NCBI RefSeq assembly: GCF_000272405.2
Contig: NZ_AJZM02000419.1
Location: 1-39,094 of the forward strand
Source of the DNA: Vibrio tasmaniensis 1F-187
GTDB taxonomy: Bacteria; Pseudomonadota; Gammaproteobacteria; Enterobacterales; Vibrionaceae
DNA length: 39,094 nt
Direction of reading: 5' to 3'
Of the stretch, positions 11,396-25,864 are shown one piece after another. The notes below the pieces were generated by a model, which did no database searches, was not told the DNA's origin, and saw only the letters and a program-made list of their open reading frames with translations. The stretch's first letter is position 1. Every line of letters begins with the position of its first letter. The translations under genes and the position numbers were made by a program.

Positions 11396-11410
11396 TTATC
11401 GCATGGTAAC
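11396..11410 (-). pseudogene. gor: Displaced native 3' end of gor (Val-Thr-Met-Arg-stop)
   Basis: Read on the minus strand, these 15 bases are GTT ACC ATG CGA TAA, which encodes Val-Thr-Met-Arg-stop. This is the exact C terminus that E. coli glutathione reductase has (EEFVTMR). The first three codons are identical to those in the intact gor at 24327-24335. It is the remnant left when the element inserted into the gor 3' end, and it lies next to gor's apparent terminator. Confidence 0.8.
11402..11410. repeat. Attachment-site core, cargo end
   Basis: CATGGTAAC, identical to 24327-24335. It is flanked by GTGGTTT (11391-11397, host) and AAACTAC (11411-11417, element). These form an imperfect inverted repeat, 6 of 7 bases, around a 13-bp centre, the usual shape of a tyrosine-recombinase core site. 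A further GGTGGTTT follows at 11425-11432. Confidence 0.7.
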
Positions 11411-11793: not shown

Positions 11794-13629
11794 TTAAAAA
11801 GTTTTTTCTAGCATCGAAGGTGACTCTAAGCTCTTATCATTATGTGGGAGTAGTGACTCAAGGAGCTTGGATAATATCAATGTTAGCTTGTCTTTAGGTG
11901 TATCTGATAGTTCTAATCCCAAACATTGTAAAGACGGAGTTATAGGGTTCAAACTCAAAAGATCGTGCTCTTTGACATGAAAGCTATTAAACGGAGAAGA
12001 TTGTTCTGGAAATAAGATCGTCATAGAGTCGACCACTGTCTTTCCAGTTTCTCTTTGGTGAATACCGTGCACGTATTTCATAGTACATTCAGGAAGTCTT
12101 TTCTCTGATGCAATTAGCTCGGTTGTATATTTAGCATCAAGCACTGCTAACTTGAACTCTCCATTAGGTTGCTTGACCTCAATGACTATATCAGGACACC
12201 TATGTGAGTATTTATGCGTATGTGATCTGGCTCTTACCTCTGTTCTAGTAACAGTTAAACCTTCTGAGTTAATGAATCGACTATCCGAAACATTTCTATT
12301 GAAAGGCATCCAATAAACTGGTTCTCTAAGAAGCGAGATCTCATTGCCATATTTATCTTGCCAGTAACTATTTACTCTATCATTCGTAAGAAGAATACTG
12401 TTGAGCGTTTCTGCGACTCGATAATAACAATAAGATTCAAACAAAATAGGGATACTTTTTATCGCAAATAAATTCTCATATATAGACCAATCTGGCTTGC
12501 TTTTCTCATACCAGTTAATAAATTCTATAAAAATAGTTCGATAAGAGAGGTCTGATGCCGCTTTAGATGTCAACATCGGCCTTTGTGTTAATGCATGACT
12601 TACGCTTAAATGAGTATCTAAGTGAAACTTAAGGTTAGTTGCTGAATTTAAAAGGTTTTCACATCTGGTTACTTGTTCGCTCAAAAGGCGTTTTTTGAAT
12701 TTTTTTACTTGTTCAAAAAACGACACATACCCTTTGGGGGGAGAAGTAACAGCTGTTTGACCTTCATCTATGCTTTCATATGAGTTTAATTGATTGGAAA
12801 TTTCAACTATCAATAAATTCACAAAACCATGAATAACTCTATTTTCATAAACATCAGCACTTTCTTTGAGCTCTGAAATTTGAAGAGCACCCGCTCTATA
12901 CATTCGATTTTCAAAGCGTAAATGTGACTGATGGATATCATCACACTCATCTAAAACAGATAGATTAGACATCAACCAACCTAATGACTCATCATTAAAA
13001 TCATGATTATCATTAGGCTGAATAACCTTTTGCTCTGGAAGGAGCTTGGATATTGGTTTTCTTAATACGTTCGGAATTAATGAGACTAGTAATTTAAAGC
13101 TATACTCCAATCGTTCCAAATTACTGATCGGGGAGCTACTACCCTCCTTAAATCCTGCATTGTACTTTGTGGTTTGAAACAAAGAATGTAACTCGTCATC
13201 ACCCAAACTAGCCAAGTATGACAACATTAACTCTACATTTTTTGCATTCGCTTTCGATGCTAAAACTTCAATTGGCTGAAAATTAACATAGTGCTGGCTA
13301 CCATCTTGATTTAGTAGCTTTATTGTAAGTTCAGCCACCCCAAAATAATTGAAGAAAAGACAATCCTGTTTTCCTCCCCACTTTTTTTGGGGTAACCACT
13401 TAAAACAACAGTTGCTCTCACCATCATCATGTGTGATTGAACTGACATCAATTTTATGGTCATAAAGAATAAGTTCTGCGTCGGTATAATGGTTGGGTAC
13501 AGAAAACGACAACTCAATCACTTCATTTTCTTTCACCCATTGCTCTGGTGCTGAAGATGAAGTAATTGCAGATAAAGAGAACTGATGGCCGTACCTTTCT
13601 CCACTTTGAATTTTGATATCAAGCTTCAT
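11794..13629 (-). CDS. DUF2357/McrC-like PD-(D/E)XK nuclease
   Basis: A 611-residue protein that looks like the nuclease partner of a McrBC-type restriction pair. The first 200 residues or so form a beta-rich N-terminal part. The middle resembles DUF2357, and the C-terminal third carries a restriction-endonuclease fold. The catalytic pattern is visible as Pro-Asp480 in CPDIVIEV, then LAVLDAKY with Asp498 and Lys500, the D...(D/E)XK signature. It is the last cargo gene and starts 13 bases after the coiled-coil AAA+ ATPase stop, with a weak ribosome site, so translation is probably coupled to it. By analogy with McrB/McrC, the ATPase would load or translocate on a nucleic acid and activate this nuclease. 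The target (modified DNA, RNA or other) cannot be read from sequence. Confidence 0.75.
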   Translation of the reverse strand: MKLDIKIQSGERYGHQFSLSAITSSSAPEQWVKENEVIELSFSVPNHYTDAELILYDHKIDVSSITHDDGESNCCFKWLPQKKWGGKQDCLFFNYFGVAELTIKLLNQDGSQHYVNFQPIEVLASKANAKNVELMLSYLASLGDDELHSLFQTTKYNAGFKEGSSSPISNLERLEYSFKLLVSLIPNVLRKPISKLLPEQKVIQPNDNHDFNDESLGWLMSNLSVLDECDDIHQSHLRFENRMYRAGALQISELKESADVYENRVIHGFVNLLIVEISNQLNSYESIDEGQTAVTSPPKGYVSFFEQVKKFKKRLLSEQVTRCENLLNSATNLKFHLDTHLSVSHALTQRPMLTSKAASDLSYRTIFIEFINWYEKSKPDWSIYENLFAIKSIPILFESYCYYRVAETLNSILLTNDRVNSYWQDKYGNEISLLREPVYWMPFNRNVSDSRFINSEGLTVTRTEVRARSHTHKYSHRCPDIVIEVKQPNGEFKLAVLDAKYTTELIASEKRLPECTMKYVHGIHQRETGKTVVDSMTILFPEQSSPFNSFHVKEHDLLSLNPITPSLQCLGLELSDTPKDKLTLILSKLLESLLPHNDKSLESPSMLEKTF

Positions 13630-13642
13630 TTGCTGTTACCAA

Positions 13643-16120
13643 TTAAAAATAAGAGAAGGAGCTTGTAAATTCATTTCCACTAGCCAGAATTCGCTCTATT
13701 TGAGCTGTAGATCTAGGGTATGAGCGTCCAAGGATGGTCTGAAGGTTACCTAAACGCTTTTTGAAACCTAACCCGTAGCCTTCAATGTGTGGAAGTATAT
13801 GTTGTTCTATAGCAAAATCTAAAGCAACTTCAGAATCTAGTATTGAACCAACAACTGCACAGTAATTTGTAATGGCATTTACTTTACGTTTACTTATATG
13901 TACTGGGTTTCCTAGTTTTGAATCTCGTACGGACAATTGCTCAATAACTTGTTTCAATACCAAAGAGTTTGCTTTAGATAACTCAGCTTCATCAGGGATA
14001 AAGAGCTTTTTCATCAAACTTGAGTGAACTGCACCATCAAGCTTCTTCCCTACAATATTATGTGCAATTTCACTAGACAGATCTAAATTGATAATTGGAG
14101 CTCTATCAATTAAACGAGGTGACAAACGTTCCGTTGTTGCATCATTGTTTATTGTTGCGATGAATCTGACAGACTCATCCAACTTAAGAAACCTTAGGTC
14201 TTCTTTAGGAATGCCTGTATCTATAGGTCTTGAACCATAATCACTGTCACAATGACCTATAAAGTCAGACCAATAATGTTCCATTGAAGAGAGGTTCGCT
14301 TCATCAAGCAGAATGAGCTTGTTTGCTTGATTACCATCTCGCTGTAGGAAATTATAAAGTCCCGTCCTTGATTCTTGATATACACCTTTTAGTGAGTTGT
14401 AAAAACCTAACGTATCTCGGCTTGACACCCAACCTCGGCCAACTGGAACAAATAAAAAATTCTTATCACCTTGAGAGCTGCCTAGGTGTAACGCTTCTGC
14501 TAAACGCGTTGCAGTTGATGTCTTCCCCGTTCCTGGAGGGCCACTCAACACAGTTAAGAAAGACTGATTTACCGAAACTAATAAGTTTGTCATTTCTTCT
14601 TGAGAAAAAGCTCTTCCGCCATCTTCTGAAAATTCATGACATAAGCTATCAATTAGGTCCTCGGCATTTTCTGGCTGGCTTTTGGCAAATACAATAGGTT
14701 TAGCTTCTAAAGAGGTAGTCTCAAGATATGATTGTCCACTTAAAACTTTATTAATGGCCTCCATCTCCCCAATTTTTTTAGCTAAATCTTGGTTACTTGT
14801 AGTTTGTAAAGTATTAACAAAGCCATTCGCTGCAGACTCAAGCATTTTATTATGCTCTTCTAGATACGACTTTCTTTTATTCAGCTGAACTGTTTCGTTG
14901 AAGATACCTAATTCTTTAGATTGATTCTCTATATCATTCACAATGTTAGAAAGATCTAACTTGGCAGATTCTATTTCCTTAGAAAGCTCATGTTGTTGTT
15001 CTTCAAGGCGTTTTTTTATGGTCTCTTCTTTTTCAGCTTCTATTTTTGCTATATCTTCTTCTACTTCTTTCTTTTTTAACTCAATCTTCAATTCGAAATC
15101 ATGTAATTGAGTCTCTTTTTGCAAAAATGTATCTGATAGTTTTTGAAGTTTCAGTTTTATCTCTTGTTCTTTTTCATCAGCTTCTTCTTTAACCTTCTCT
15201 AAATGCTCTTGTAGCAAAGATAACTTGTTCTCTTCTACGTAAGTTTGCAGAAAGCGCTGGCCTGCCGACGAGCCAAGGTACTCTTTTATCAGAGAGTAAC
15301 CAAAATCAGCTTCCACCAAGTATTTATCTAATAACTTTTTTAAACGTTCAACACGTTCATCTTGTTTTATTATTTGATTTTCTTTCTCACTGTCAGCAAT
15401 AAACTGCTGTAACCTTTCAGCTTCTTTCTTGGCTAGAACTTTTGATTTTTTCCCAAAGCCTTGAGCATTAACAACGCGAATAAGTTGGTCATCAGACAAG
15501 TAGTCAATGCCTGAGTTGCCTGGTTTATACTTAGATATAGCCTTAAAGGAGGTAATGAATTTTTTCTCAACGCCATTAACAAAAACATCAACAACAGTAT
15601 CTAGAACCTCTGAGTAGTTGAACTTTCCTAGGTACCCTTTACCAAAGCTTAATAATGGATGAACAAACGGTTCAACCATGTATCGCTTATCATCAGTTTG
15701 AGTGCTAGATAAAGGGCCGTACATGCATTGATTATCTAAGATAAAAAATGGTTGCGACGGTGGAACAACATCTAGAGGCAATAGCCCAGCTTGTTTGTCG
15801 GGAAGCTCTGTAATTAAAACTGGTAAGAATGTATTTTGAGGGAGCTTCTCCACATCATTGAAGTATGCTCGGTACTTTAAACCTTCTTTAGTTTCGTCCA
15901 GATAGTGATTCGATAGCACAAAGAGCTCACCGGCTTCATACTGCTCAGTAATCGCAGGAAAACCTTTTGTAATCAAGATATCACTAGGGTATTCATCACG
16001 GCTTAAGCGACGATAAGAACCATCTTCTTGTTCGGCTAAAACTGGGATTACAAACCCTTGGTTTTCGTTAAGAGCTGATGATTTAACTACAATTAACTTC
16101 TCAGTTATTACTTGCTGCAT
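13643..16120 (-). CDS. Coiled-coil McrB-like AAA+ ATPase
   Basis: An 825-residue protein in three parts. Residues 1 to about 225 are an unrecognised N-terminal domain. Residues about 225-450 are strongly charged (Glu/Lys/Gln-rich heptads such as KEEADEKEQEIKLKLQKLSD), a long predicted coiled coil. The C-terminal half is an AAA+ domain of McrB type, with Walker A GPPGTGKT (527-534), Walker B LILLDEAN (Asp606-Glu607), a sensor-like ATINND and an arginine-bearing SPRLIDRA. McrB's GTP-specific MNTADRS motif is not conserved here, so nucleotide preference is open. ATP is more likely. The start has GAGGA upstream. With the adjacent DUF2357 nuclease this forms a McrBC-like pair with a large inserted coiled coil, as in the computationally described CoCoNuT class. 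The match is by architecture only. Confidence 0.75.
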   Translation of the reverse strand: MQQVITEKLIVVKSSALNENQGFVIPVLAEQEDGSYRRLSRDEYPSDILITKGFPAITEQYEAGELFVLSNHYLDETKEGLKYRAYFNDVEKLPQNTFLPVLITELPDKQAGLLPLDVVPPSQPFFILDNQCMYGPLSSTQTDDKRYMVEPFVHPLLSFGKGYLGKFNYSEVLDTVVDVFVNGVEKKFITSFKAISKYKPGNSGIDYLSDDQLIRVVNAQGFGKKSKVLAKKEAERLQQFIADSEKENQIIKQDERVERLKKLLDKYLVEADFGYSLIKEYLGSSAGQRFLQTYVEENKLSLLQEHLEKVKEEADEKEQEIKLKLQKLSDTFLQKETQLHDFELKIELKKKEVEEDIAKIEAEKEETIKKRLEEQQHELSKEIESAKLDLSNIVNDIENQSKELGIFNETVQLNKRKSYLEEHNKMLESAANGFVNTLQTTSNQDLAKKIGEMEAINKVLSGQSYLETTSLEAKPIVFAKSQPENAEDLIDSLCHEFSEDGGRAFSQEEMTNLLVSVNQSFLTVLSGPPGTGKTSTATRLAEALHLGSSQGDKNFLFVPVGRGWVSSRDTLGFYNSLKGVYQESRTGLYNFLQRDGNQANKLILLDEANLSSMEHYWSDFIGHCDSDYGSRPIDTGIPKEDLRFLKLDESVRFIATINNDATTERLSPRLIDRAPIINLDLSSEIAHNIVGKKLDGAVHSSLMKKLFIPDEAELSKANSLVLKQVIEQLSVRDSKLGNPVHISKRKVNAITNYCAVVGSILDSEVALDFAIEQHILPHIEGYGLGFKKRLGNLQTILGRSYPRSTAQIERILASGNEFTSSFSYF

Positions 16121-16313
16121 TTTCTGTCCTCATCAAATCTCGAAGCACTACACGTACACTTCTAGCATTTGTATGAAATAAATTAAGAACTATAGATTGC
16201 AGATAATATTACACTAAAGAGGCCTCATAATAATTGATTTTATGCGTGTAAGTGTAGTGCATCACTATAATTGTTTAGCTCTAGGTAGCTTACTCACGTT
16301 CAGTTTTATATTT
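16121..16313 (-). promoter_or_regulatory. Intergenic promoter region before the ATPase gene, framed by an inverted repeat
   Basis: The 193 bases between the helicase and ATPase genes contain two near-identical inverted arms. GCACTACACGTACAC (16145-16159) matches the reverse complement of 16246-16260 at 14 of 15 positions. Between them on the minus strand is a possible promoter, TTAGTG-17 bp-TATAGT. This region may therefore give the ATPase/nuclease pair its own regulated transcript, with the arms as operators or as the base of a long stem. Confidence 0.45.
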
Positions 16314-17693
16314 TTATAAAAAGGCTGAAATTACGCGTTGTTTAAAAGCCCCTAATCGAAGTTCATCTTGTGTGCTAAGACCATCGACTGGGCTCGAACT
16401 GCCATTCATTATTGAGGTCCAGTTCAACTTGCTTTCAGGTGTTGATGCGCTGTCGAATAATTCATTTCGACCATTATTGAAGGGATTTCCTAAGTCGTAT
16501 TCAAGTTCACCTGCCATTTTGGCAAACATACATAACTCAGGAATGTCTTGTTCAACCCGCTCTGCAAACTCTATTAGGCTTTGCTCTGCAAAAGTGAATA
16601 ACCACGCTTGCTGGTTCATAGAATCATTAACCCGAAGAATCCGTCCGAGTACCTGCCTAAAGTACAGCTCTGTTTTAACTGAACTCATGTGGCAACAAAC
16701 TTGAAGGCGAGGAATATCAGTACCTTCACTGATCATTCCGACACTAACAATCCATTGAGTGTTGCCTCGACGGTAACGTTCAATTTTATCCAAAGGCTCT
16801 TCATGTCGGTAAGTCACGATTGAGACGGTTTGTGAGAACTTTTCACAGAGTATCTTTTTAATGGTTTGAGCGTGGTAAACAGACGAAGCAACAACTAATC
16901 CACCGGCACTAGGAGAGTGATTACGTATCTCTGCGAGCTTTTTACAAGCAAGGTCAATCAAGTACTCCATTGCATCTCGGTTGTTAATGACCGTTTGGTA
17001 CGAGGTTTTAGTCTGCTTAATCATCTCAAGTATCGAGGAGAATGATTCAACTTTCTCATCGCTAGTCACCGACAAATGTTCATTATCAACCAATACGATT
17101 TTCGGGTTTCGACAGACATTATCAGCGATTGCCTGCTTTAATGTGTACTGGTAGTCAACCAACAGCTGCCCGTCAGGAGTGTTATATTCGGCCATCACGA
17201 TAGGTAAAGAGTCCGAACGCCAAGGAGTGCCTGACATCGCCAAAGTATAGGTAGCTAACTCTTGAACTTTGGTTAACACTTGCTGGCCCCAAACATTCGC
17301 ATTTTCAATATCTGAGCCTGAACAATGGTGTATCTCATCAAAGACGACGAACACTCGGTGATTACGAAGTGTCTTCCAAAATTCATCATTGAGAAATTGA
17401 ATTGATTGGTATGTGAGTGACTGTCCAATAGAGCCTAGCCCACCATTAAAAGTACAATTTAGGGTCTGAGAAAAGGTTCTTTTTATACCATCAGAAACTG
17501 TTAATGATGGAGAAAAACATAATACAAGGTCGACCAAACCGTCTTTTAGCAACTTTGATGCGACAGTGGCGGCAAGTACGGTTTTTCCAGCCCCAGGGGT
17601 TGCTTGGCAGAAAAAGTGTTTTTGGTTTTTTCTATATTTCTGTAAGGCTTTTTCCGAGCACTCTAGTTGCCAATGTCTTAACACGGTTGGCAA
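16314..17693 (-). CDS. SF2 DEAD/DEAH-family helicase
   Basis: A 459-residue superfamily 2 helicase with both RecA-like lobes. Motif I is ATPGAGKT (31-38), motif II DEIH (119-122) and motif III SGTPWR (154-159). The second-lobe motifs are VSVGMISEGTDIPRL and, for motif VI, RQVLGRILR with Gln347, Gly350, Arg351 and Arg354. LRHWQ near the N terminus looks like the Q motif. It resembles the helicases of type III restriction enzymes and other defence systems more than RNA helicases. It begins at a TTG at 17693 (a GTG at 17684 is possible), overlapping the upstream gene by 16 bases, so the two are translationally coupled. There is no accessory nuclease domain. It probably supplies translocation or remodelling for the McrBC-like pair downstream. 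Confidence 0.8.
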   Translation of the reverse strand: MPTVLRHWQLECSEKALQKYRKNQKHFFCQATPGAGKTVLAATVASKLLKDGLVDLVLCFSPSLTVSDGIKRTFSQTLNCTFNGGLGSIGQSLTYQSIQFLNDEFWKTLRNHRVFVVFDEIHHCSGSDIENANVWGQQVLTKVQELATYTLAMSGTPWRSDSLPIVMAEYNTPDGQLLVDYQYTLKQAIADNVCRNPKIVLVDNEHLSVTSDEKVESFSSILEMIKQTKTSYQTVINNRDAMEYLIDLACKKLAEIRNHSPSAGGLVVASSVYHAQTIKKILCEKFSQTVSIVTYRHEEPLDKIERYRRGNTQWIVSVGMISEGTDIPRLQVCCHMSSVKTELYFRQVLGRILRVNDSMNQQAWLFTFAEQSLIEFAERVEQDIPELCMFAKMAGELEYDLGNPFNNGRNELFDSASTPESKLNWTSIMNGSSSPVDGLSTQDELRLGAFKQRVISAFL

Positions 17694-18208
17694 TCTTCTG
17701 AGAGGGTTTTAAGAACATTCGTCAATCCATTCACCTTTCCAAGTAGGTGTGCTGAACGCTCTTTTGCTTGCTGTAACAGTGGGGTTAACTTGCACTCAAG
17801 CTCAGGGAAGCGATACCTTAATGACTGGTATTCTTCAATTTCACCAAGCACGATCTCCAATTCACCTTTGTATTCATTACTCTCTCGAAATAACACGGAA
17901 TAATCCGTTGTGCACTCTTTTATCGAAGTTGTATATGTGGCTTTTTTTCGAGGCGTAACTTGTAGCTCTCTAAATTGTTCGGTTTGAAAGTACTTTTTGT
18001 GTCTTCCTTCCCCTTCACTTCGCAACCACCCCTTTTGTTGATATTGCCATATTTGGCGATAAATCTTCTTCCGAGCTTCATCAAGGTTTTGTGTACCTTT
18101 TTCAACATTTAATGAAGCGTCCCTCGCTTCCACAACTGAAAAACCATCCATTCTCTTTTCAATCAACAACTTGTGCATTTCTGCACTGATTTTCGTAGAA
18201 CGTTTCAT
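17678..18208 (-). CDS. Winged-helix-like small protein at head of cargo operon
   Basis: A 176-residue basic protein that I do not recognise by family. Residues about 5-75 look like a winged-helix DNA-binding domain (KISAEMHKLLIEKRMDGFSV...KKIYRQIWQYQQKGWL, then the wing-like SEGEGRHKKYF). Residues about 110-175 are a likely helical coiled coil. It is the first gene of the operon and lies beside two palindromic operators and the divergent XRE gene. It overlaps the helicase by 16 bases, so the two products are probably made together in similar amounts. It could be a local regulator or a DNA-recognition subunit of the complex; the sequence does not decide between these. The ribosome site is weak. 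Confidence 0.6.
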   Translation of the reverse strand: MKRSTKISAEMHKLLIEKRMDGFSVVEARDASLNVEKGTQNLDEARKKIYRQIWQYQQKGWLRSEGEGRHKKYFQTEQFRELQVTPRKKATYTTSIKECTTDYSVLFRESNEYKGELEIVLGEIEEYQSLRYRFPELECKLTPLLQQAKERSAHLLGKVNGLTNVLKTLSEDCQPC

Positions 18209-18228
18209 GTATTGCTTACATCACTCAA

Positions 18229-18249
18229 ATACTAAGGATTGCTTAGTAT
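18229..18249. promoter_or_regulatory. Palindromic operator 1 of the cargo/XRE divergent region
   Basis: ATACTAAG (18229-18236), spacer GATTG, CTTAGTAT (18242-18249): a perfect 8-bp inverted repeat. It contains the minus-strand -10-like TATACT (18245-18250) of the cargo promoter, so a protein bound here would block transcription of the cargo. Its inner sequence ACTAAG-N5-CTTAGT is repeated at 18264-18282. Confidence 0.7.
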
Positions 18250-18263
18250 ACAGAAATCAGTAA

Positions 18264-18282
18264 AACTAAGAAAATCTTAGTT
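18264..18282. promoter_or_regulatory. Palindromic operator 2 of the cargo/XRE divergent region
   Basis: AACTAAG (18264-18270), spacer AAAAT, CTTAGTT (18276-18282): a perfect 7-bp inverted repeat sharing the ACTAAG-N5-CTTAGT core with operator 1. The two centres are 34 bp apart, about three helical turns, which suits two repressor dimers on one face. It touches the -10-like TATATA (18282-18287) of the XRE gene and the -35 zone of the cargo promoter. Confidence 0.7.
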
Positions 18283-18310
18283 ATATAGAGCTTAGAGATA
18301 TGAAGCATCA

Positions 18311-18631
18311 GTGTCGTTCAATAATCCGTTACCAATACGCCTCAAAGAAGCGCGTAAAAAAGCAAACCTCTCTCAGAAGGCTTTGGGAGTTCGTATAGGT
18401 ATGGATGAAGGTTCTGCTAGTCCAAGAATGAATCAGTATGAGAAAGGGAAGCATACACCGGATGCTCAAACCTTGAAGTTAATTGCTGGTGAGCTTGGAG
18501 TGCCATTGAGCTACTTTTTTTGTGAGGATGTTGATTCTGCAGAGCTTGTTTGCTTGATAGATAAGTTGAATGAGGCCGATAAGAAAAACCTTATCGACCA
18601 TATTAAGAAAAAGCTTGATGGTATTGAGTAA
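18311..18631 (+). CDS. XRE-family transcriptional regulator
   Basis: A 106-residue regulator, the size of restriction-modification controller and phage repressor-like proteins. A helix-turn-helix domain fills residues about 7-70 (IRLKEARKKANLSQKALGVRIGM...MNQYEKGKHTPDAQTLKLIAGELGV), followed by a short helical tail. The start is GTG with a weak ribosome site. It is divergent from the helicase/McrBC-like cargo and convergent with the recombinase operon. Two copies of ACTAAG-N5-CTTAGT lie in the 102-base divergent region, so it most likely binds them, represses the cargo and regulates itself. This is an inference from position and symmetry. Confidence 0.85.
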   Translation: MSFNNPLPIRLKEARKKANLSQKALGVRIGMDEGSASPRMNQYEKGKHTPDAQTLKLIAGELGVPLSYFFCEDVDSAELVCLIDKLNEADKKNLIDHIKKKLDGIE

Positions 18632-18656: not shown

Positions 18657-19115
18657 TTACTTAATCGAAACAACCTTGCTTCGCTTTAGTTGAACTAACT
18701 CTTCACGTAATTGGGAGTTTTTAAACTCCAAATCTTCTATATGAGCCAACGCTTGAACCAGCTTGTCGTTAAGGTGGTGCTGCGCAGCTGCAAACAGGGC
18801 TAACTTCTCTCGCTCCGCCTCGTACTTAGTTTTGTAGTTGTCCTTAATGCGCTTTTGTTCTTTGAGCTTGGTGCGAACAGTCTGGATCTCTGGTTGGACT
18901 ATTTCACCTTTTCCTGCCGCAATCTCTGCTTTAGTTTGCTTCACTTTCTCAACAAACTCAGGGTAGTAATAGCCGCTGCCATTACCTAGGTTAGCTTCTT
19001 CCTCAACCGCTCTCACACTGAGCTTACGATGAGTAGGGATACGCTTAGGCTTGCCTTGTTTAATTCTTTCTAGGGCAGCCTCTAATGCTAGTCGTGTATT
19101 TTCGCTCTTACTCAT
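18657..19115 (-). CDS. Small coiled-coil protein of the recombinase operon
   Basis: A 152-residue, highly charged, mostly helical protein. The N-terminal third is basic (ALERIKQGKPKRIPTHRKLSV) and includes a helix-turn-helix-like stretch up to GSGYYYPEFVEKV. The rest is a coiled coil (EQKRIKDNYKTKYEAEREK through LVQLKRSKV). It overlaps the preceding recombinase gene by 4 bases (ATGA), so it is made with it. In place and form it corresponds to Tn554 TnpC, a small helper that biases integration versus excision. It also recalls the small accessory gene linked to Gamma-Mobile-Trio recombinases. Function is inferred from this position only; it has no catalytic motif. Confidence 0.7.
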   Translation of the reverse strand: MSKSENTRLALEAALERIKQGKPKRIPTHRKLSVRAVEEEANLGNGSGYYYPEFVEKVKQTKAEIAAGKGEIVQPEIQTVRTKLKEQKRIKDNYKTKYEAEREKLALFAAAQHHLNDKLVQALAHIEDLEFKNSQLREELVQLKRSKVVSIK

Positions 19116-21157
19116 AAATTCGCTACCTTCAAATCAGGTTCAAAAGGCGTGAAGGGCATATCAAAGTCAGCCATGACTTTCTCTGCGGCTCTTACTTGAG
19201 TGACATAGTGACTATGTTCACTTACTGAAATATCTTCGCCAGATTCCATGTAAGCAACTAGACTACGGTGCTTTTTTCGCCACCATTTAGCCTGTTGTTC
19301 GTCAATGATGCTACTACCAGAGCCACAGTCCACGCAGAATTGTGGGGTGACCACACCGTCCATATCGCAGTCATAACCAGATTTGCAATAGCTATGCATT
19401 GAACCATGCAGTGTCAACTTACCATCCTTTACGGCTTTATATATAACATCCCATGAGCTATAAATGGTCGGCACATCCCCTCGCATTTTCATGATCGCTT
19501 TGCCATAAGTGCCCGATAGTTTTTCATCTGAGTACCATTGTTTAAAGATTTTATTTGCGGTGGGTTCTGCATTGATTTCATCGAGTGCCTTTTGCACTTG
19601 CTCATCTACTTTCAGATCCCGTAGGCTCGCCAGCTTCCCACCATTGGTGTACCACTCGGTCATCGCGAGGTATAAGTGCTTGAACTGTTGTTTTAGCGCT
19701 ACTAATGTCCCTAGGCGGTTCTTAATGCAGTAAAAGGCCAAGGTGCGCCTGAACTGATGAGTTGTCATGTGCCATGGATTTCCAACAGTTACATCTTTTT
19801 TTACGCGGTTAAATGAGCGAGGGTTTGACTCAAGGCATTCTGCGAAATCCTTTTCAGTTACAATGAAATTGAATTGATTGCAAAAGCGCTGTAATCGGTG
19901 ATTCCATCCTGTAATCAATGTAGGGGGCTTGGAGCGGTATGATTTATTTACCCAAATCGAGTCTTTGTATTTTTTATCTGGGTAAGTGATTTCTTTGCGC
20001 CATTCTTCAGTTAATGTGGTCATTAACTCTATTGCAGCTTTGGAAGATGAAGCTGTGACCCATGTTTCTCGCTTATTGCCTAACTTAAAAGTGTGAGATT
20101 GGAGCATGTGGAAATCACGTCCTTCAAAGGTATCCTTGTAATAGCTTCTAGGCGTTAATTTATCGATTTCGGAATCTCGCATACCGCTAAAACCACCACA
20201 TACGATATAGCAAGCATTAGTTAGTTGACCCCAATAGCGTTTAAAATCTGTTCCATTGTTTAGTCTAAGACTTGGTACTTTAGCGGCTAATGGTTCGACA
20301 AGCTCTTTAACTTTGCATGGTTGTAACTCTTGAGCTGTGGAAATGTATTTTCGCTTATCGAAGCTACCATCCTCACCCATGAAGGAATAACGGCTCCCTT
20401 GCTTTATTTTTTCTTCAAGATTGCGCACCCCCTCGTCATAGTTATGCTGTAGAGACTTCTCAATATCTAATATTAATTGTCTATGTGGGTGAGCATCATT
20501 GACCAGTTCTATAGCTTTTCCATAAATGGCATTACATAAACGTTCAGGTATAACAAGAGTTTGCTGCGCTTCATTGAAACTTATCCGTCTTGCTTCTGTT
20601 TTTGACTTTATTGGATTGAGTCCAAGCTCAAGCTTGTGCCATGACTCATCATTTATAGCGGCATTTAATGCAACAAAAGTTGACTCGATAGTCCCTTGGG
20701 CATAGTTACCCTCTTGTAAAAAGTGCTCAAAATCACTCCAAACCATAGATAAAGAAAGACATTTTAGTGACTTATGGTTGTTCCTTTGTAAGAAACGATA
20801 AACCACTTTTATATTGTCAAATCGAGTTCGTACACTAGAAAACTTGAGTGCTTTTTTCTGCTTTGGACTTTTGTTAAATAGCCAGCCATAACTTAGCAGT
20901 TTTAGTTCCTGTTGTAGCTCAGGGATATTGTCAAACTCTTCTGTGTTTAGGTTGTTCCTGCTCTTTTTTCGCGAGAAAGGCAGGCAATCCCAATTGTTCT
21001 GGCCAAAGTTGGCGGTAACGTTTCCGTCTTTATCCTTGCAGATGATGATGGTATCTAGCTCTTCATATCTTTTCTCATGGTAGAGCGTTACTACATCAAC
21101 ATCCGTGACCTTATTTTGCTGTGGAAAGTCGGGTAAATAGAGTTTAGATGTATCCAT
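19112..21157 (-). CDS. Large tyrosine recombinase with complete catalytic set
   Basis: A 681-residue site-specific recombinase, much longer than phage integrases. Catalytic residues are all visible: Arg327 (GGFSGMRDSEI), Lys358 region (HTFKLG), His467 and Arg470 (HQFR), His494 (FKHL) and nucleophile Tyr503 (TEWY). The C-terminal part has four cysteines (Cys591, Cys597, Cys608, Cys611) that may bind zinc. I start at the ATG at 21157, which overlaps the preceding stop by one base (TAATG) and has AGG upstream; an in-frame start at 21217 would extend 20 residues into the neighbour. It appears to be the large integrase of a Gamma-Mobile-Trio-type set (possibly what is called GmtZ). The name is from memory and should be checked. 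It is followed directly by the small coiled-coil gene. Confidence 0.8.
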   Translation of the reverse strand: MDTSKLYLPDFPQQNKVTDVDVVTLYHEKRYEELDTIIICKDKDGNVTANFGQNNWDCLPFSRKKSRNNLNTEEFDNIPELQQELKLLSYGWLFNKSPKQKKALKFSSVRTRFDNIKVVYRFLQRNNHKSLKCLSLSMVWSDFEHFLQEGNYAQGTIESTFVALNAAINDESWHKLELGLNPIKSKTEARRISFNEAQQTLVIPERLCNAIYGKAIELVNDAHPHRQLILDIEKSLQHNYDEGVRNLEEKIKQGSRYSFMGEDGSFDKRKYISTAQELQPCKVKELVEPLAAKVPSLRLNNGTDFKRYWGQLTNACYIVCGGFSGMRDSEIDKLTPRSYYKDTFEGRDFHMLQSHTFKLGNKRETWVTASSSKAAIELMTTLTEEWRKEITYPDKKYKDSIWVNKSYRSKPPTLITGWNHRLQRFCNQFNFIVTEKDFAECLESNPRSFNRVKKDVTVGNPWHMTTHQFRRTLAFYCIKNRLGTLVALKQQFKHLYLAMTEWYTNGGKLASLRDLKVDEQVQKALDEINAEPTANKIFKQWYSDEKLSGTYGKAIMKMRGDVPTIYSSWDVIYKAVKDGKLTLHGSMHSYCKSGYDCDMDGVVTPQFCVDCGSGSSIIDEQQAKWWRKKHRSLVAYMESGEDISVSEHSHYVTQVRAAEKVMADFDMPFTPFEPDLKVANL

Positions 21158-22902
21158 TATCCTACCTCGACTGGTGATTTTGAAATTAAGCTTAAAACTG
21201 ATTCGTTGTCGCTCCATGCAGGGTGCAAACCATCATCATCAAGTTTGGCTTCTGCCTTTCTCAATATCTGCTGATTTATGCTTGGTAGTATTTTTTGCTC
21301 GATAAACTTTACAATGTTTTCAAAGTTTTTTTTATAATGGCTGGCATCCAAGTGAAGGAACAGTGATTCTTCAATACAGGCTCTGAATGAGAGCAGGCAC
21401 CAGACATCTGATACCGACTGAACAATCACTTGGTCTGGGCAACCAAAGCACCCTAGTAGGTCTGCACAGGCTAATCGCTCTCCCTCCTTTGCAAGCCCTT
21501 GTGCTTGAGCTTTCTTGGTGTACTTTTGGGACTTTTCACCGAATGGGGCAGCGCAGCTACCGCCATTAGAAGTTCGGCTTAAATTGGGAAGGTTAATCTT
21601 GTTTTCTTCCTCGATAACCAGTACCTCAATACTGAGGTTTTTCTGAGCCTGCTGTGTGTTGACCCTGCTCTTGACCTGCTCCTCCCGAATTGACATCGTA
21701 TCTTGCATCATGCCGTTATTTGCCAGCTTATTTCCCTCGCTATAGTGACGCTTACGGATGTTGGGTGTGTTGTTAAGCATGAGGTTATTAACCATTTCAC
21801 CTTGATGATATGACGTTAGTTGAGAGCCTGTTTCACGAAAGCGGCTTATGCTAGGGCGTAAGCGTCTTCCCATTTGATCTGTAAATGTGAAGTTTTTTTC
21901 GACCCAGAGTTTGAGAAATGCCTGTAGAGTTCTGCTCTTTAATGGTTGTATCTTTTTGGATGCAATCGTCTGAAGAAGAGTTGCTTGCTCGCTGGTACTT
22001 AATATTCGTGAAGCTTTCAGTAATTTGTCGAAAAAAGTCATGGCATACTTGGGGATCTCTAATTCATGCTCACCAATTTCAATTTGAATGGTTTTAAATG
22101 CGCGACGTTTGAAAGCTGGCATTGTGTACCAGACTTCACCAGTAAATATCGAAGCATTGTTTGGCTGTCTTAGTTGTAATAGAGTGCTTGTGTTGGCATA
22201 GGTGTAATAAGACAATAAGTAGGCGGCAGTACACATCATCTTAGATATACCTCCACAAAGTTGATATTTTTCACCTAGCCATTCAAAGGTCATAGTCGGT
22301 GTAACCTTTGACGCATGAATGTGCTTATCAGGGGCTTCAATAAACTGTGAATAGGTTTGATTGAAAAGACGCCTTAAGAAAGGGAGCAATTGATTTAAAT
22401 CGCTACGTGTATAGCTCTCAAACGGTTCTCGATCGCTGTTGTCCATGATAATCACGTTATTAAAATAATAGTGTGGTAAATCAAGGTATCTAGTGAATAG
22501 GGAGACCATATTTGCTCGTCTAATTTTATATGAACTACGTTTTATTTCCCCCAACATGACACGAACTTGTATGTGCTCCATGTAGCCTTCTAATGAGTGT
22601 TGGCTAAAAGCTGCATAATTTTCTTTATCGCACCATCGAAGGTACTGTGATAATTCACTAAAAATCCCATATAGAGATTTATGGCTAGAACCTTCATCCA
22701 TTTTTTCACTAAATCTGTCTTTTAATCTAAGAGCAAACTCTCTACGGTTAGCATTCTCGAATTGATGGCTCTGCTGTAGTTTGTGAGTTGGAGGAAAGCC
22801 TTTAAATAAAAGGCGGTTAAAGTCAGCTAAAGCGTTGTTGTACGCATTAAGATTAAAGCAAAGTTCTGGTTTCCAGTCAGAAAGGTAGGTAGGTTCAGTC
22901 AT
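21157..22902 (-). CDS. Degenerate tyrosine-recombinase-like protein, probable accessory subunit
   Basis: A 581-residue protein with the tyrosine-recombinase plan but worn catalytic sites. The box I position of the usual Arg is Asn237 in LLSYYTYANTSTLLQLR. The HxLR motif reads Ser353-Arg-Phe-Arg356, and the next His is Asn378. Only Arg356 and Tyr387 (RKRHY) remain. Four cysteines in the C-terminal part (Cys450, Cys479, Cys485, Cys488) could bind zinc. The ATG at 22902 has AGGTGG five bases upstream and overlaps the previous stop by 8 bases; a GTG at 22911 is possible. The gene lies between two intact recombinases, so it may shape the synaptic complex without cutting DNA. It would be the third member of the trio. 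Confidence 0.7.
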   Translation of the reverse strand: MTEPTYLSDWKPELCFNLNAYNNALADFNRLLFKGFPPTHKLQQSHQFENANRREFALRLKDRFSEKMDEGSSHKSLYGIFSELSQYLRWCDKENYAAFSQHSLEGYMEHIQVRVMLGEIKRSSYKIRRANMVSLFTRYLDLPHYYFNNVIIMDNSDREPFESYTRSDLNQLLPFLRRLFNQTYSQFIEAPDKHIHASKVTPTMTFEWLGEKYQLCGGISKMMCTAAYLLSYYTYANTSTLLQLRQPNNASIFTGEVWYTMPAFKRRAFKTIQIEIGEHELEIPKYAMTFFDKLLKASRILSTSEQATLLQTIASKKIQPLKSRTLQAFLKLWVEKNFTFTDQMGRRLRPSISRFRETGSQLTSYHQGEMVNNLMLNNTPNIRKRHYSEGNKLANNGMMQDTMSIREEQVKSRVNTQQAQKNLSIEVLVIEEENKINLPNLSRTSNGGSCAAPFGEKSQKYTKKAQAQGLAKEGERLACADLLGCFGCPDQVIVQSVSDVWCLLSFRACIEESLFLHLDASHYKKNFENIVKFIEQKILPSINQQILRKAEAKLDDDGLHPAWSDNESVLSLISKSPVEVG

Positions 22903-24220
22903 CGTTACCACCTAACGCATCGTGCATAATCGCATCAAGGATGCCATACTTCACTTTGAAAGCCTCTTTGCGTTTTAGAAAGCGTAAATACTTCCAAGTC
23001 GTACTTTCACCTTTATGCCCCATCCAACCCATCAGAAGCTCCATACAGTCGACAACGGGCAATTTAGCCTCTAGCAAAACATTGAGACGATAGGTGGCAT
23101 AGGTGGCGCGTAAATCATGGAAGCGATGGGAAAATGATGGCTCTACCTGTTTTATTTCTGCCCTGAACTCAATCCATCGAGCTTCAATGGATTTACCCGT
23201 AGCAGGGTTGCCTTGTTGGCTAACAAAAAGTGGTTCGTGACGATCACAACGCTCTAGTGTTTCAATGGTCTTCTGGGTGAAGCTGACAGCATCACTGTGT
23301 AATTGTTCTATTTTCTCGTTAAGCCTAGTAACACGCTTAAGGCGTCGCTCTGAAATTCGATACTCATTCAACGACTGGATCAAATCCGATGAAATCTCGA
23401 CAGTCCGTGTTTTCAAGAATTTGGTTTGTACGCCAGTAGAGCGGGGGCATAAAAGAATTTCAAAGCGATGTTGGCTTTCAGCAAGTGGCGTTGCAGTGTC
23501 CAGCGCATCTAACGTTAGGGTTGCTACTTCTTCAACCCGCATACCTGTATCAATTGCAAGCAAGGCCTGCAAGCGCAACTCTTCAGACGTTAGTGGAAGG
23601 TGTTGAGTTAAAATACTAAGCGTATCACGGCTTAGTGGAGATAGTGGCCTGATGTTTTTACTATCTGCATCCCTGGGCACTTTTATGCGTAAATCACTGG
23701 TTTCAACAATGAAAGTTGAAGATATGTGGGCAAGCATTCCACTGTTCTGAACAGAGACAAATTCCATTTTGAATGGGGCTTCTTTCTCATTTTTTACGCA
23801 TAGATAACCATCATGCATTAGCCACTTATAGTAATTGACGATTTGGTTCATACGAACACTGGCAGTGCTGTGTGCAAGCGTGCCTTGTTTTATTTGCTTC
23901 AGCAGGTGTGAGCGGAACAGGTAAGTTGGTTTGAGCCGTTTGACTGGCGGGAATTTATCCCAACTCCCCCCTTTGTCCTCAAGAAATTGGTAGTAGGCAC
24001 GCAAAGCCTGCGCGCAAGGGGATAAGTCCTCTGCTTTCTTTACGACCTTGAGATAAAACAGGTAGCTGTTGGCTTCGTGATTGAATACACCATCTTTCGA
24101 AAAGAGGGTTGGCAGCGAACCGATATTGTTATTGGAAGGGAGGCAATGGAATGTACCATTATCCAGTTTTTGTAGCTCAGTCTCTTTGAAAACATCGCTG
24201 GAGTGCACAAGGTATGTCAT
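22895..24220 (-). CDS. Tyrosine recombinase, first gene of the mobility operon (GmtY-like)
   Basis: A 441-residue site-specific recombinase. The N-terminal SAM-like core-binding region (about 50-150) precedes a catalytic domain with every expected residue: Arg228 (DTGMRVEEV), Lys270 region (KFLKTRT), His368 and Arg371 (HDLR), His402 (GWMGH) and nucleophile Tyr411 (WKYL). It is the first gene inside the gor end of the element, with a 12-bp-arm palindrome just upstream and AGGA before the ATG. It reads in the same direction as gor with no clear terminator between, so gor read-through could feed it. It resembles Tn554 TnpA and the GmtY recombinase of Gamma-Mobile-Trio islands; the latter name is given from memory. 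It is the best candidate for the enzyme acting at the 9-bp core. Confidence 0.85.
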   Translation of the reverse strand: MTYLVHSSDVFKETELQKLDNGTFHCLPSNNNIGSLPTLFSKDGVFNHEANSYLFYLKVVKKAEDLSPCAQALRAYYQFLEDKGGSWDKFPPVKRLKPTYLFRSHLLKQIKQGTLAHSTASVRMNQIVNYYKWLMHDGYLCVKNEKEAPFKMEFVSVQNSGMLAHISSTFIVETSDLRIKVPRDADSKNIRPLSPLSRDTLSILTQHLPLTSEELRLQALLAIDTGMRVEEVATLTLDALDTATPLAESQHRFEILLCPRSTGVQTKFLKTRTVEISSDLIQSLNEYRISERRLKRVTRLNEKIEQLHSDAVSFTQKTIETLERCDRHEPLFVSQQGNPATGKSIEARWIEFRAEIKQVEPSFSHRFHDLRATYATYRLNVLLEAKLPVVDCMELLMGWMGHKGESTTWKYLRFLKRKEAFKVKYGILDAIMHDALGGNDD

Positions 24221-24317: not shown

Positions 24318-25676
24318 CTAACCCCTCATGGTAACGAATTCTTCGCTGCCCGTTGGGTGAATCGCCACAACAGAGTCGAAATCTGCTTTGGTTGCGCCCA
24401 TTTTCATTGCAACGCCGAAGCCTTGAATCATTTCATCAACAGTAAAACCGATGCCGTGTAGGCCGACTACAGTCTCTTCTTCGCCAGCACACACTAGCTT
24501 CATCTTACAAGGTTGACGGTGCTGAGTGACAGCAGTGTACATTGCAGTAAAACCAGACGTGTATACCTTGATGTTGTCTTTGCCGTATTGCTCTTCAGCT
24601 TCTTGAGTCGTTAGACCAATAGTGCCGATAGGTGGGTGGCTGAATACAACAGTAGGAACGAGCGTGTAGTCCATCTTCGCGTTTGTTTGGCCGTTGAATA
24701 GGCGCTCAGAAAGCTGACGACCGGCTTTAACAGCAACAGGTGTTAGCTCGATGCCACCTTCCATGATGTCGCCAACACAGTAGATGCCAGGAACGTTGGT
24801 TGCTTGGAACTCGTCGACTTTGATGTAGCCACGGTCGTTGGTTGCAACGCCAGTTGATGCTAGGTTGATAGCGTCAGTGGCTGGGTGGCGACCGATAGCC
24901 CAAATTAGGTGGTCAACGTTTTGAGTGTTGCCGTTCTCAAGGTGCAGAGTCAGTGTGCCATCTGCTTCTTTCACTACTTCTTTAGGAACAGAGTGCGTGT
25001 GAAGTGTTGGGCCTTCCGCTTCCATTACTTCAACCAGTGTTTCAACAATCATTGGGTCGAAGCTGCGAAGTGGTGACTCTTTACGACAGAACAAGTGTGT
25101 CTCTGTGCCAAGTGCACTTAGTACGCCTGCGATTTCTACTGCGATGTAGCCTGCGCCGATTACAGCAACACGTTTAGGTTGCTCCATCAGATCGAAGAAA
25201 CCGTTTGAGTCGATACCGTGCTCTGCGCCAGGGATGTTTGGAATGGTTGGACGACCACCCACTGCGATCAGGATGTGATCCGCTGTGTAGTGTTCACCGT
25301 TAACTTCAACGGTTTTTTCATCTACAAACTTAGCAAAGCCTTTGATTACGTTTATTTTGTTATTACCAAGAACGCGATCGTAAGATTGGTGGATACGACC
25401 AATGTACGCTTGACGGTTTTCAACCAGTTTGCCCCAGTTGAAGCCTTTTACGTCAACGTCGAAGCCGTAGTCTTTTGAATATAGGTTGATTGCTTCAGCA
25501 ACTTGAGCACCGTGCCACATAACCTTTTTAGGAACACAACCAACGTTTACACAAGTACCACCAAGGTCTTGAGCTTCGATAAGTGCAACTTTTGCACCGT
25601 GCATTGCTGCGCGGTTAGCTGATGCGATGCCGCCTGAACCGCCGCCGATACAGATGTAATCAAAATGAGTCGCCAT
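24318..25676 (-). CDS. gor: Glutathione reductase, with C terminus replaced by element insertion
   Basis: Cytosolic FAD enzyme that reduces glutathione disulphide with NADPH. The 452-residue protein has the FAD motif GGGSGG (11-16), the redox pair Cys42/Cys47 in [13 protein letters not shown], and the NADPH fold GAGYIAVE with the arginines of CRKESPLR. The C-terminal catalytic His440-Glu445 lies in HPTGSEEF. I start at the ATG at 25676, which has GGAG upstream; an in-frame ATG at 25688 adds four residues. The last codons are Val-Thr-Met-Arg-Gly-stop, where relatives end at Val-Thr-Met-Arg. The final two sense codons and stop come from the inserted element. No terminator follows the new stop, so transcripts may run into the recombinase gene. 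Activity should be unaffected, because the His-Glu pair is intact. Confidence 0.95.
24327..24335. repeat. Attachment-site core, gor end
   Basis: CATGGTAAC, which encodes the Val-Thr-Met codons of gor on the minus strand and is identical to 11402-11410. Bases to the left (24318-24326, Arg-Gly-stop) are element-derived. Bases to the right are native gor. Confidence 0.75.
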
Positions 25677-25864
25677 TACTTTCTCCATTTATTGAAGGCT
25701 GTGGGTACAGTGAGCGCACTGAACACCTACGTCCTATAGATTCTTAAATTGTCTAATTATTATATTGAGGGCAGATCGGTTGAACTCAATCTCCCTGTTT
25801 AAAATTTATTCGTGTACGTCACAGTCTGCTGAGTATTCGTCGGAGCATGACGTTAAGTTCGAGA

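Follow-up and report, generated by a model that had tools for sequence, protein, structure and literature searches.

Four genes that run in one direction through a contig of Vibrio tasmaniensis 1F-187 raise the question of whether a winged-helix protein, a helicase and a McrBC-like pair work together as a single defence system. The window, by which we mean the whole stretch of DNA analysed, is the 39,094-nucleotide contig NZ_AJZM02000419.1 (assembly GCF_000272405.2), from a genome of 5.33 Mb in 435 contigs. In order of transcription, on the minus strand, we call the genes A (17678-18208; a VspR-like winged-helix protein with a C-terminal helical hairpin, 176 aa), B (16314-17693; a superfamily 2 (SF2), RadD/SSL2-like helicase, 459 aa), C (13643-16120; a McrB-like AAA+ ATPase with a long helical, coiled-coil-like region and an NxD motif, 825 aa) and D (11794-13629; a McrC-like protein with DUF2357 and a PD-(D/E)XK nuclease, 611 aa). 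An earlier note had proposed that they form one module restricting invading nucleic acid. Its four open reading frames of 176, 459, 825 and 611 aa on one strand agree with the coordinates, as does its tight coupling at two of the three junctions: A and B overlap by 16 nt and C and D are 13 nt apart, with 193 nt between B and C. A fifth gene within the same interval, absent from that note, is key to the locus. This gene, HTH (helix-turn-helix; 18311-18631, plus strand, 106 aa), diverges from A over a 102-bp gap and encodes a controller of the C.Csp231I class. Judged by sequence comparison, the four genes are two modules within a GInt-type island at the 3' end of gor, not one defence system. On balance, we consider it probable that the cargo is composite, with a portable controller-A-B switch cassette acting as an entry timer and a separate C-D pair beside it.

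Of 227 genomes from the genus, 108 had homologs of A (E 1e-3), often in multiple copies. We hand-picked 60 stretches from these matches, closest first (one of them, L097, gave no A by tblastn), and added all 30 named loci from a profile search with A; these belong to Vibrio, Aliivibrio, Photobacterium, Alginatibacterium and a Thalassolituus bin. Once 17 rows with an identical A stretch had been dropped, there were 72 non-duplicate loci, the window itself being excluded. HTH was found at 67 of these loci, B at 67 and both at 62, and the C-D pair at only one, L106 of Aliivibrio finisterrensis (C was counted above 27% identity, thereby excluding the 23% AAA+ match of L088). B was at least 440 aa long in 62 of the 72 and had the three catalytic helicase motifs as well in 61. 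In the set of 60 stretches, the overlap of A with B is mostly 7 nt, and 83 to 105 bp separate HTH from A. Three genomes (L072, L073, L074), two of whose rows were among those removed, share an identical first 520 bp of A and carry different genes further downstream. When the comparison was made from the side of C, D adjoined it in 8 of ten other C loci, and A or B was present at one, again L106; L137 and L138 of this set are nearly the same, the L139 piece ends at C, and in L143 the C frame is shortened with no D within 1.5 kb. Because A-B and C-D co-occur so rarely, an outcome that the earlier note itself had named as refuting its proposal, the reading of the four genes as one system fails. 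The proposed restriction of invading nucleic acid is reasonable for the C-D pair, but it does not extend to A and B as subunits of that pair.

Divergence along the island supports the same division. Measured against V. tetraodonis (L103), HTH, A and B are at synonymous distances of 0.19, 0.39 and 0.34, but ginD is at 0.99; similarity to L103 ends at 16318, at the stop codon of B, to resume only at the end of the island. The A. finisterrensis locus has the same A-B-C-D order and a similar B-C gap, yet its HTH, A and B lie at synonymous distances of 1.48, 1.19 and 1.5, versus 0.62 and 0.54 for C and D. Nucleotide identity to it is 76 to 77% for A and B (75.9% for B) and 89% for C and D (88.9% for C), and drops to 66 to 68% around the B-C junction (68.4% at 16121-16313). 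All genes compared are under purifying selection, with ratios of nonsynonymous to synonymous divergence (dN/dS) of 0.045 to 0.15. Given these abrupt shifts at the ginD/controller and B/C junctions, we conclude from the sequences compared that the gin genes, HTH-A-B and C-D have been exchanged as three separate blocks, and we place a recombination boundary at the B-C junction (16121-16313, minus strand), where the stop of similarity and the shift of identity coincide.

The controller matched the Csp231I C protein (PDB 3lfp) with an E-value of 2e-22 over residues 9-101, and the PADLOC model Control_protein at 5.6e-28. Two operators lie between HTH and A: operator 1 at 18231-18247, with its CTAAG-N5-CTTAG core at 18232-18246, and operator 2 at 18265-18281, whose core of the same form spans 18266-18280; the two are 19 bp apart. 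The window holds exactly these two matches against 0.02 expected. In related loci, the HTH-A gap likewise contains two inverted repeats whose 15-bp cores read CTAAG-N5-CTTAG or carry a paired change at the third position. With any base pair accepted at that position, both operators were present in 66 of the 67 non-duplicate HTH-bearing loci and one operator in the remaining locus, and the core-to-core spacing was 19 bp in all 66. The operators of 11 loci are of the form CTTAG-N5-CTAAG (T-variant), and the controller residue that follows RMN is His in 11/11 loci with this variant and Gln in 56/56 with the others, although the loci are not independent. L066 has kept both operators with no HTH called. 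According to published work, the C.Csp231I operator consists of two CTAAG-N5-CTTAG sites 18 bp apart, to which two dimers bind and whose spacer length is critical (PMC4321490, PMC4824078). The family match together with this operator assigns the controller and its operators, at the level of sequence, to a known class of switch from restriction-modification systems, that of C.Csp231I and C.EcoO109I. Likeness to this class covers the protein family, the twin sites and a spacing of 19 versus 18 bp; unlike its members, the controller described here diverges from a regulator-helicase pair rather than standing before restriction-modification genes of its own, and 11 loci have the His/T variant. The exact twin site was found in 6 of 369 genomes of the class, our own included, and a reversed control site in 0 of 369. 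In the other five (L145 to L149, from other families), the adjoining HTH protein is 47 to 53% identical and neither A nor B is present; L146 and L147 have a lipoprotein-like gene on the far side of the twin operator. A decaying cassette was seen in V. ostreicida (L051, the same as L108), where no controller is called, both operators precede A, B is cut to 352 aa and matches to IetA and IetS follow.

Scans of A against Pfam, NCBIfam and PADLOC gave no family match past the cut-off, the best PADLOC E-value being 0.019. Its predicted model (mean pLDDT 81.6) shows a winged helix at the N-terminus followed by a long helical hairpin, so that the winged-helix description in the earlier note applies to the N-terminus of the model and has no family match past the cut-off behind it. 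A relative with 61% identity to A is annotated as VspR, and it is on that annotation that the similarity to V. cholerae VspR rests. In VSP-I (Vibrio seventh pandemic island I), VC0176 is reported to be an HTH protein and VspR to bind DNA of the CBASS (cyclic oligonucleotide-based antiphage signaling system) locus and lower its transcripts (PMC10653837, PMC12409362). The order at L063 resembles VSP-I, with HTH, A, a CapV phospholipase, a cyclase and the E1/E2 genes of CBASS, and no B. The likeness to VspR thus lies in a regulator beside a small HTH gene, ahead of CBASS, and in the annotation of the A relative. VspR itself was compared by annotation and description, and the difference is that most A genes here precede a helicase and cargo other than CBASS. 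In a machine-learning study, vspR ranked first among the genes that distinguish clinical from environmental V. parahaemolyticus (79% vs 17%), and csy3 fourth (PMC13234855); a simple explanation may be that the VpaI-7 transposon carries such a cassette.

B contains the Pfam domains ResIII (2e-14), in agreement with the SF2 assignment of the earlier note, and Helicase_C, and has the motifs DEIH119, SGT154 and QVLGRILR347. It matched a RadD-like model at 7e-16, yet far below the cut-off of that model, and its nearest solved chains are XPB/RAD25. In PADLOC it was recognized as a generic helicase only (best PbeA, 2.3e-14, partial). With dN/dS values of 0.09 and 0.15, B is under purifying selection.

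To judge by comparison of loci, controller-A-B is one portable cassette that is reused across GInts, gamma-mobile-trio elements (GMTs) and I-F3 CRISPR transposons, in front of exchangeable cargo that is often defensive. We scored five mobile-element markers at the 72 loci and found gin-like genes at 19 (BLASTP 1e-4, distant ones included), TnsB/TnsC-like genes at 9, and GmtZ, a 930-aa gene and an additional tyrosine recombinase at 7 each; any of the five occurred at 49. At L077 to L079 and other c10 loci, the 930-aa protein, which has no Pfam or NCBIfam match, stands at the recombinase position and is followed by a 174-aa protein; it is possibly a recombinase of an unrecognized kind. Cas8f/5f genes of I-F3 transposons were seen at four loci, including a Cas85f match in L098. 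In the Tn7-like or I-F3 loci L085, L086, L087, L090, L091, L094 and L098, a third operator, CTTAG-N5-CTAAG, precedes the start of a tniQ-like gene by about 7 to 17 bp or, in L087, falls just inside the called start. The same operator is thus found at the tniQ-like start in 7/7 loci whose stretch shows that gene, the label resting on position before cas8f/5f and on cysteine motifs, with no NCBIfam match; neither the gene nor its operator was seen in the other two TnsB/TnsC loci (L088 and L089) or in L099. This third operator would link the cassette controller to transposition. Beyond the Vibrionaceae, HTH-A-B and its twin operators occur in gin islands on IncHI-type plasmids from Citrobacter, E. 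coli and Klebsiella, two of them with CBASS. Side by side in such plasmid islands (L134, L136, L133) stand gin genes, HTH-A-B and CBASS or a multiubiquitin/ThiF operon, L134 being on a plasmid named for blaNDM-6. Two Vibrio plasmids have HTH-A with gin genes, one of them (L135, V. parahaemolyticus) without B; of the 12 plasmid records found to contain A, five were examined. The literature that we searched contains no description of controller-A-B as a unit, though its parts are known. In addition, hipB and ssl2 are described as enriched cargo of Shewanella transposons (PMC12452197). The new point appears to be the cassette, and not its parts.

What follows the cassette varies. Of 50 loci, 37 have the first gene behind B on the same strand as B, and in 34 it lies no more than 300 bp away. 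We hand-picked 30 downstream proteins from 29 loci, among the first three genes of at least 150 aa, and compared them with PADLOC. Sixteen matched at 1e-8 or better and fell into at least 10 kinds, namely type I methyltransferase and nuclease, type II methyltransferase, CBASS E1-E2, IetS, GajA (two kinds), a GajB-like helicase, HerA, reverse transcriptase, PDC-S28, PDC-S06, PDC-S73, Dsr1, a weak Ppl/LmuB and Cas85f, the last being transposon machinery and not defence. The other 14 had no PADLOC match. Nine partner genes were checked later and all nine matched. The cargo types thus include type I restriction-modification, CBASS, IetAS, Gabija, Sir2-HerA, reverse transcriptases and others. At 13 of 59 loci, a small basic protein of 95 aa (cluster c6, for example L042:13235-13522:-) is encoded about 104 bp behind B.

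In the window, the cargo behind B is the C-D pair. Both AAA and AAA_5 matched C past the Pfam cut-off, and D matched DUF2357 (E 5.7e-8) and PDDEXK_7 (8e-5), likewise past the cut-off, so that the nuclease assignment of the 611-aa protein is upheld. C contains the motifs GPPGTGKT527, DEAN606 and TINND656, of which N658 and D660 are invariant in alignments of 5 and 6 sequences. The active site of D, PD479...DAK498-500, is invariant in all sequences compared (overlapping alignments of 4 and 5); the loss of the nuclease fold, which had been set beforehand as a ground for abandoning the defence reading, is therefore not the case. Relative to L106, dN/dS is 0.045 for C and 0.08 for D. The AAA+ part of the earlier description of C stood. 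Its long coiled coil may correspond to a single predicted helix of 105 residues (299-403), seen in a model of low confidence (pLDDT about 57-75 in the helix, 57.9 on average). In a Foldseek search, the AAA+ fold of this model matched McrB (6hz4_E, 8.2e-6) at rank 19, behind dynein and NorQ. CoCoNuTs of Type I-A are marked by a helical insert between Walker B and NxD; in C these two motifs are 46 residues apart, and a long insert was not seen between them in the low-confidence model. In PADLOC, C matched PDC-M26A at 1.9e-19 over residues 231-622 only, and D had no match among the models. C is rare: at 1e-40 it was found in 2 of 369 class genomes, our own included. At 1e-3, it was found in 9 of 100 relatives, also with our own and mostly through the ATPase part only, and 244 plasmid records matched, 3 of them over 80% or more of its length.

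The NxD form of the GTPase motif is reported to mark a branch that includes the CoCoNuTs, of which Types I-A and I-C are two-gene systems and whose McrC proteins often have an absent or inactivated nuclease site (PMC11090510). The C-D pair resembles this branch in its NxD motif, the long predicted helical region before the ATPase, the DUF2357 and PD-(D/E)XK partner and the two-gene operon. It differs in that D keeps an intact PD...DAK site, and the likeness is one of motifs, not of placement in a clade. An McrB-like AAA+ gene that adjoins a DUF2357-PD-(D/E)XK gene is the arrangement of McrBC-type restriction. By these comparisons, C and D form a two-gene module of their own, of McrBC type and from the NxD (CoCoNuT-like) branch. 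Its NxD motif, DUF2357 and intact PD...DAK site make a role in restriction reasonable. Most likely the pair carries out McrBC-like restriction, of DNA or RNA, and it is plausibly defensive.

How could the cassette serve such cargo? In a naive cell without controller protein, A and B would be expressed in a burst; the controller would then build up, sustain itself and shut A-B off. Meanwhile A, if like VspR a DNA-binding repressor, would hold the neighbouring cargo down, and B may work as a RadD/SSL2-like DNA helicase on the incoming or recombining element. C would form McrB-like rings, and D would stimulate C through its DUF2357 part and cut foreign nucleic acid. We infer the entry timer by analogy with two published precedents: I-F3 transposons (CRISPR-associated transposons, CASTs), for which Xre regulators and zygotic induction have been described (PMC11406308), and the V. 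parahaemolyticus Xre regulator VpxR, reported to activate itself and repress its divergent neighbour (PMC12150760). The operator at the tniQ-like start in 7/7 loci counts for the timer as well. The CAST regulators (RtaC/RtbC, and VpxR of VpaI-7) are like the controller in the C.Csp231I-like Xre protein described for the I-F3b type, in the divergent neighbour and in the operator at a transposition gene. They differ in range, the cassette with A and B being found also in GInts, GMTs and islands of IncHI plasmids, the comparison with RtbC, VPA1392 and VpxR being by description only. WYL-domain regulators such as BrxR and CapW recur beside many defence systems, and the cassette resembles them as a shared regulator that is reused beside unrelated systems; they belong to another protein family, and the cassette has a helicase partner. 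Restraint of the cargo by A would be the weakest step, because no site for A was found behind B and no controller site near C. The broader proposal, namely that controller-VspR-helicase is a general portable cassette for entry control, a C.Csp231I-type switch that unrelated elements (GInts, GMTs, RNA-guided transposons and plasmid islands) have taken up to give a regulator-helicase pulse on entry and keep interchangeable defence cargo silent until establishment, has in our view somewhat less than an even chance of being right.

Several observations weigh against the composite-cargo reading. B is missing at 5 of the 72 A loci and the controller at 5; L095, L096 and L099 have no HTH, a different 68-aa gene in its place and no operator found. 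At 23 of the 72, none of the five mobile-element markers was seen within the stretch covered. Since five of the six class genomes with the exact twin operator have neither A nor B, the switch, as far as sequence tells, also occurs alone and is not specific to A-B. Within the window, no operator precedes C or the gin genes, so any effect on the cargo must run through A or through read-through. The 250 bp after B gave no convincing common motif, the top 7-mer being present in 20 of 62 loci (which are not independent) versus 11 to 17 in 20 random draws, and the count of defence matches among the downstream proteins came without a background rate. The best fold matches of A were the PadR and VanR regulators, and they were weak (best E 0.014, TM about 0.3). 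In profile searches against solved structures, C reached McrB chains at E 0.034 only, behind Lon and others. As to the precedents, loss of vspR left CBASS-dependent drug sensitivity unchanged in one study (PMC10653837), and in one characterized controller-linked restriction-modification system the nuclease is reported to be expressed without its controller (PMC4824078).

These points have to be set against three other explanations. If the four genes were one defence system, A and B would be subunits devoted to the C-D nuclease, sensing nucleic acid for it or unwinding it. The A-B-C-D order and similar B-C gap of L106 speak for this, and Type II and III CoCoNuTs are reported to combine a helicase (CnuH) with a wHTH (winged helix-turn-helix)-bearing effector; CnuH, however, is an SF1 UPF1-like enzyme (PMC11090510), whereas B is an SF2 helicase and the operon has none of the SF1 kind. 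The synonymous divergence of A-B and that of C-D differ about twofold or more in L106, the sole shared arrangement, and with the counts given above (one A locus in 72 with C-D, one other C locus in ten with A or B) we regard this explanation as highly improbable. Alternatively, controller-A-B could itself be a small defence or superinfection-exclusion system, a helicase with a DNA-binding partner, silenced by its controller and merely parked beside others, as happens in any defence island. It does sit among many defence systems, 61 of 72 loci have a full-length B with its motifs, purifying selection acts on B, and the 14 downstream proteins that PADLOC does not match count in the same direction. 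On the other side stand the poor PADLOC match of A and the merely generic one of B, as well as the retention of A without B in L063, where CBASS follows, and in plasmid L135, where other genes follow, which fits a regulator better than a subunit. We consider a defence function of A-B unlikely, though it deserves to be kept in mind.

A third explanation is that the cassette serves the mobile element and not its cargo, in excision, in replication or repair of the circular form, or in control of transposition. RadD-type helicases act in recombination, the cassette adjoins recombination genes in GInts, GMTs and Tn7-like elements, and the operator stands at every tniQ-like start that could be seen. 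The recombination machineries, however, are wholly different between these elements while A-B remains the same, no operator is found at the gin genes of the window, and all four gin genes have been published as essential for excision and integration of GInts (PMC5385486). Service to the element is, in our judgement, decidedly doubtful. A portable switch cassette next to a separate nuclease pair thus remains our preferred reading. To our knowledge, the question of how newly arrived defence islands spare their new host is largely open; if the reading is true, many islands would share one answer to it, a conserved cassette with an exact twin-operator switch that stands ahead of many unrelated defence systems and within several unrelated mobile elements. 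The operator together with A could also serve as a practical marker for island cargo missed by current databases, as 14 of 30 downstream proteins lack a PADLOC match. The operator alone would be insufficient as a marker because five of the six operator-bearing genomes among the 369 have no A and B. For annotation, the locus is a warning that neighbouring cargo genes should not be read as one system.

The placement in an island that the earlier note had proposed is confirmed by a run of four genes at 18657-24220, three of them tyrosine-recombinase-like and the fourth small, and by a 9-bp repeat at both ends. On the minus strand lie ginA-like (22895-24220, 441 aa; Pfam Phage_integrase 1.2e-9), ginB-like (21157-22911, 584 aa; weak Pfam signal, E 0.01) and ginC-like (19112-21217, 701 aa; weak Pfam signal, E 0.03) recombinase genes, and the gene for a ginD-like small protein (18657-19115, 152 aa), assigned by position and gene order, with homologues found. 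A strong integrase signal is confined to the 441-aa gene, ginB and ginC being recognized mainly from size and order. Beyond them lies gor (24318-25688, minus strand; glutathione-disulfide reductase, 1.8e-227). The exact repeat CATGGTAAC has two copies in the window, the right end at 11402-11410 and the left end at 24327-24335, within the last codons of gor. By itself, a 9-bp repeat is within chance level (7 to 10 in shuffles). In the V. tetraodonis locus L103, the complement of CATGGTAAC is found at the two ends of the island and nowhere else. From the end repeats in the window and in L103, the island probably spans about 11.4 to 24.3 kb, with HTH-A-B plus C-D as its cargo. GInts are described as carrying, past ginD, cargo that varies from island to island, and as flanked by short, imperfect repeats of 10-11 nt (PMC5385486). 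The ginABCD order with cargo after ginD agrees with a GInt in order and size, known GInts having been compared by description. The island shares with them the three integrase-like genes and small fourth gene at one end, the cargo past ginD and, in a 9-bp exact form, short end repeats, and it differs in that its target is the 3' end of gor and its cargo opens with a conserved control cassette.

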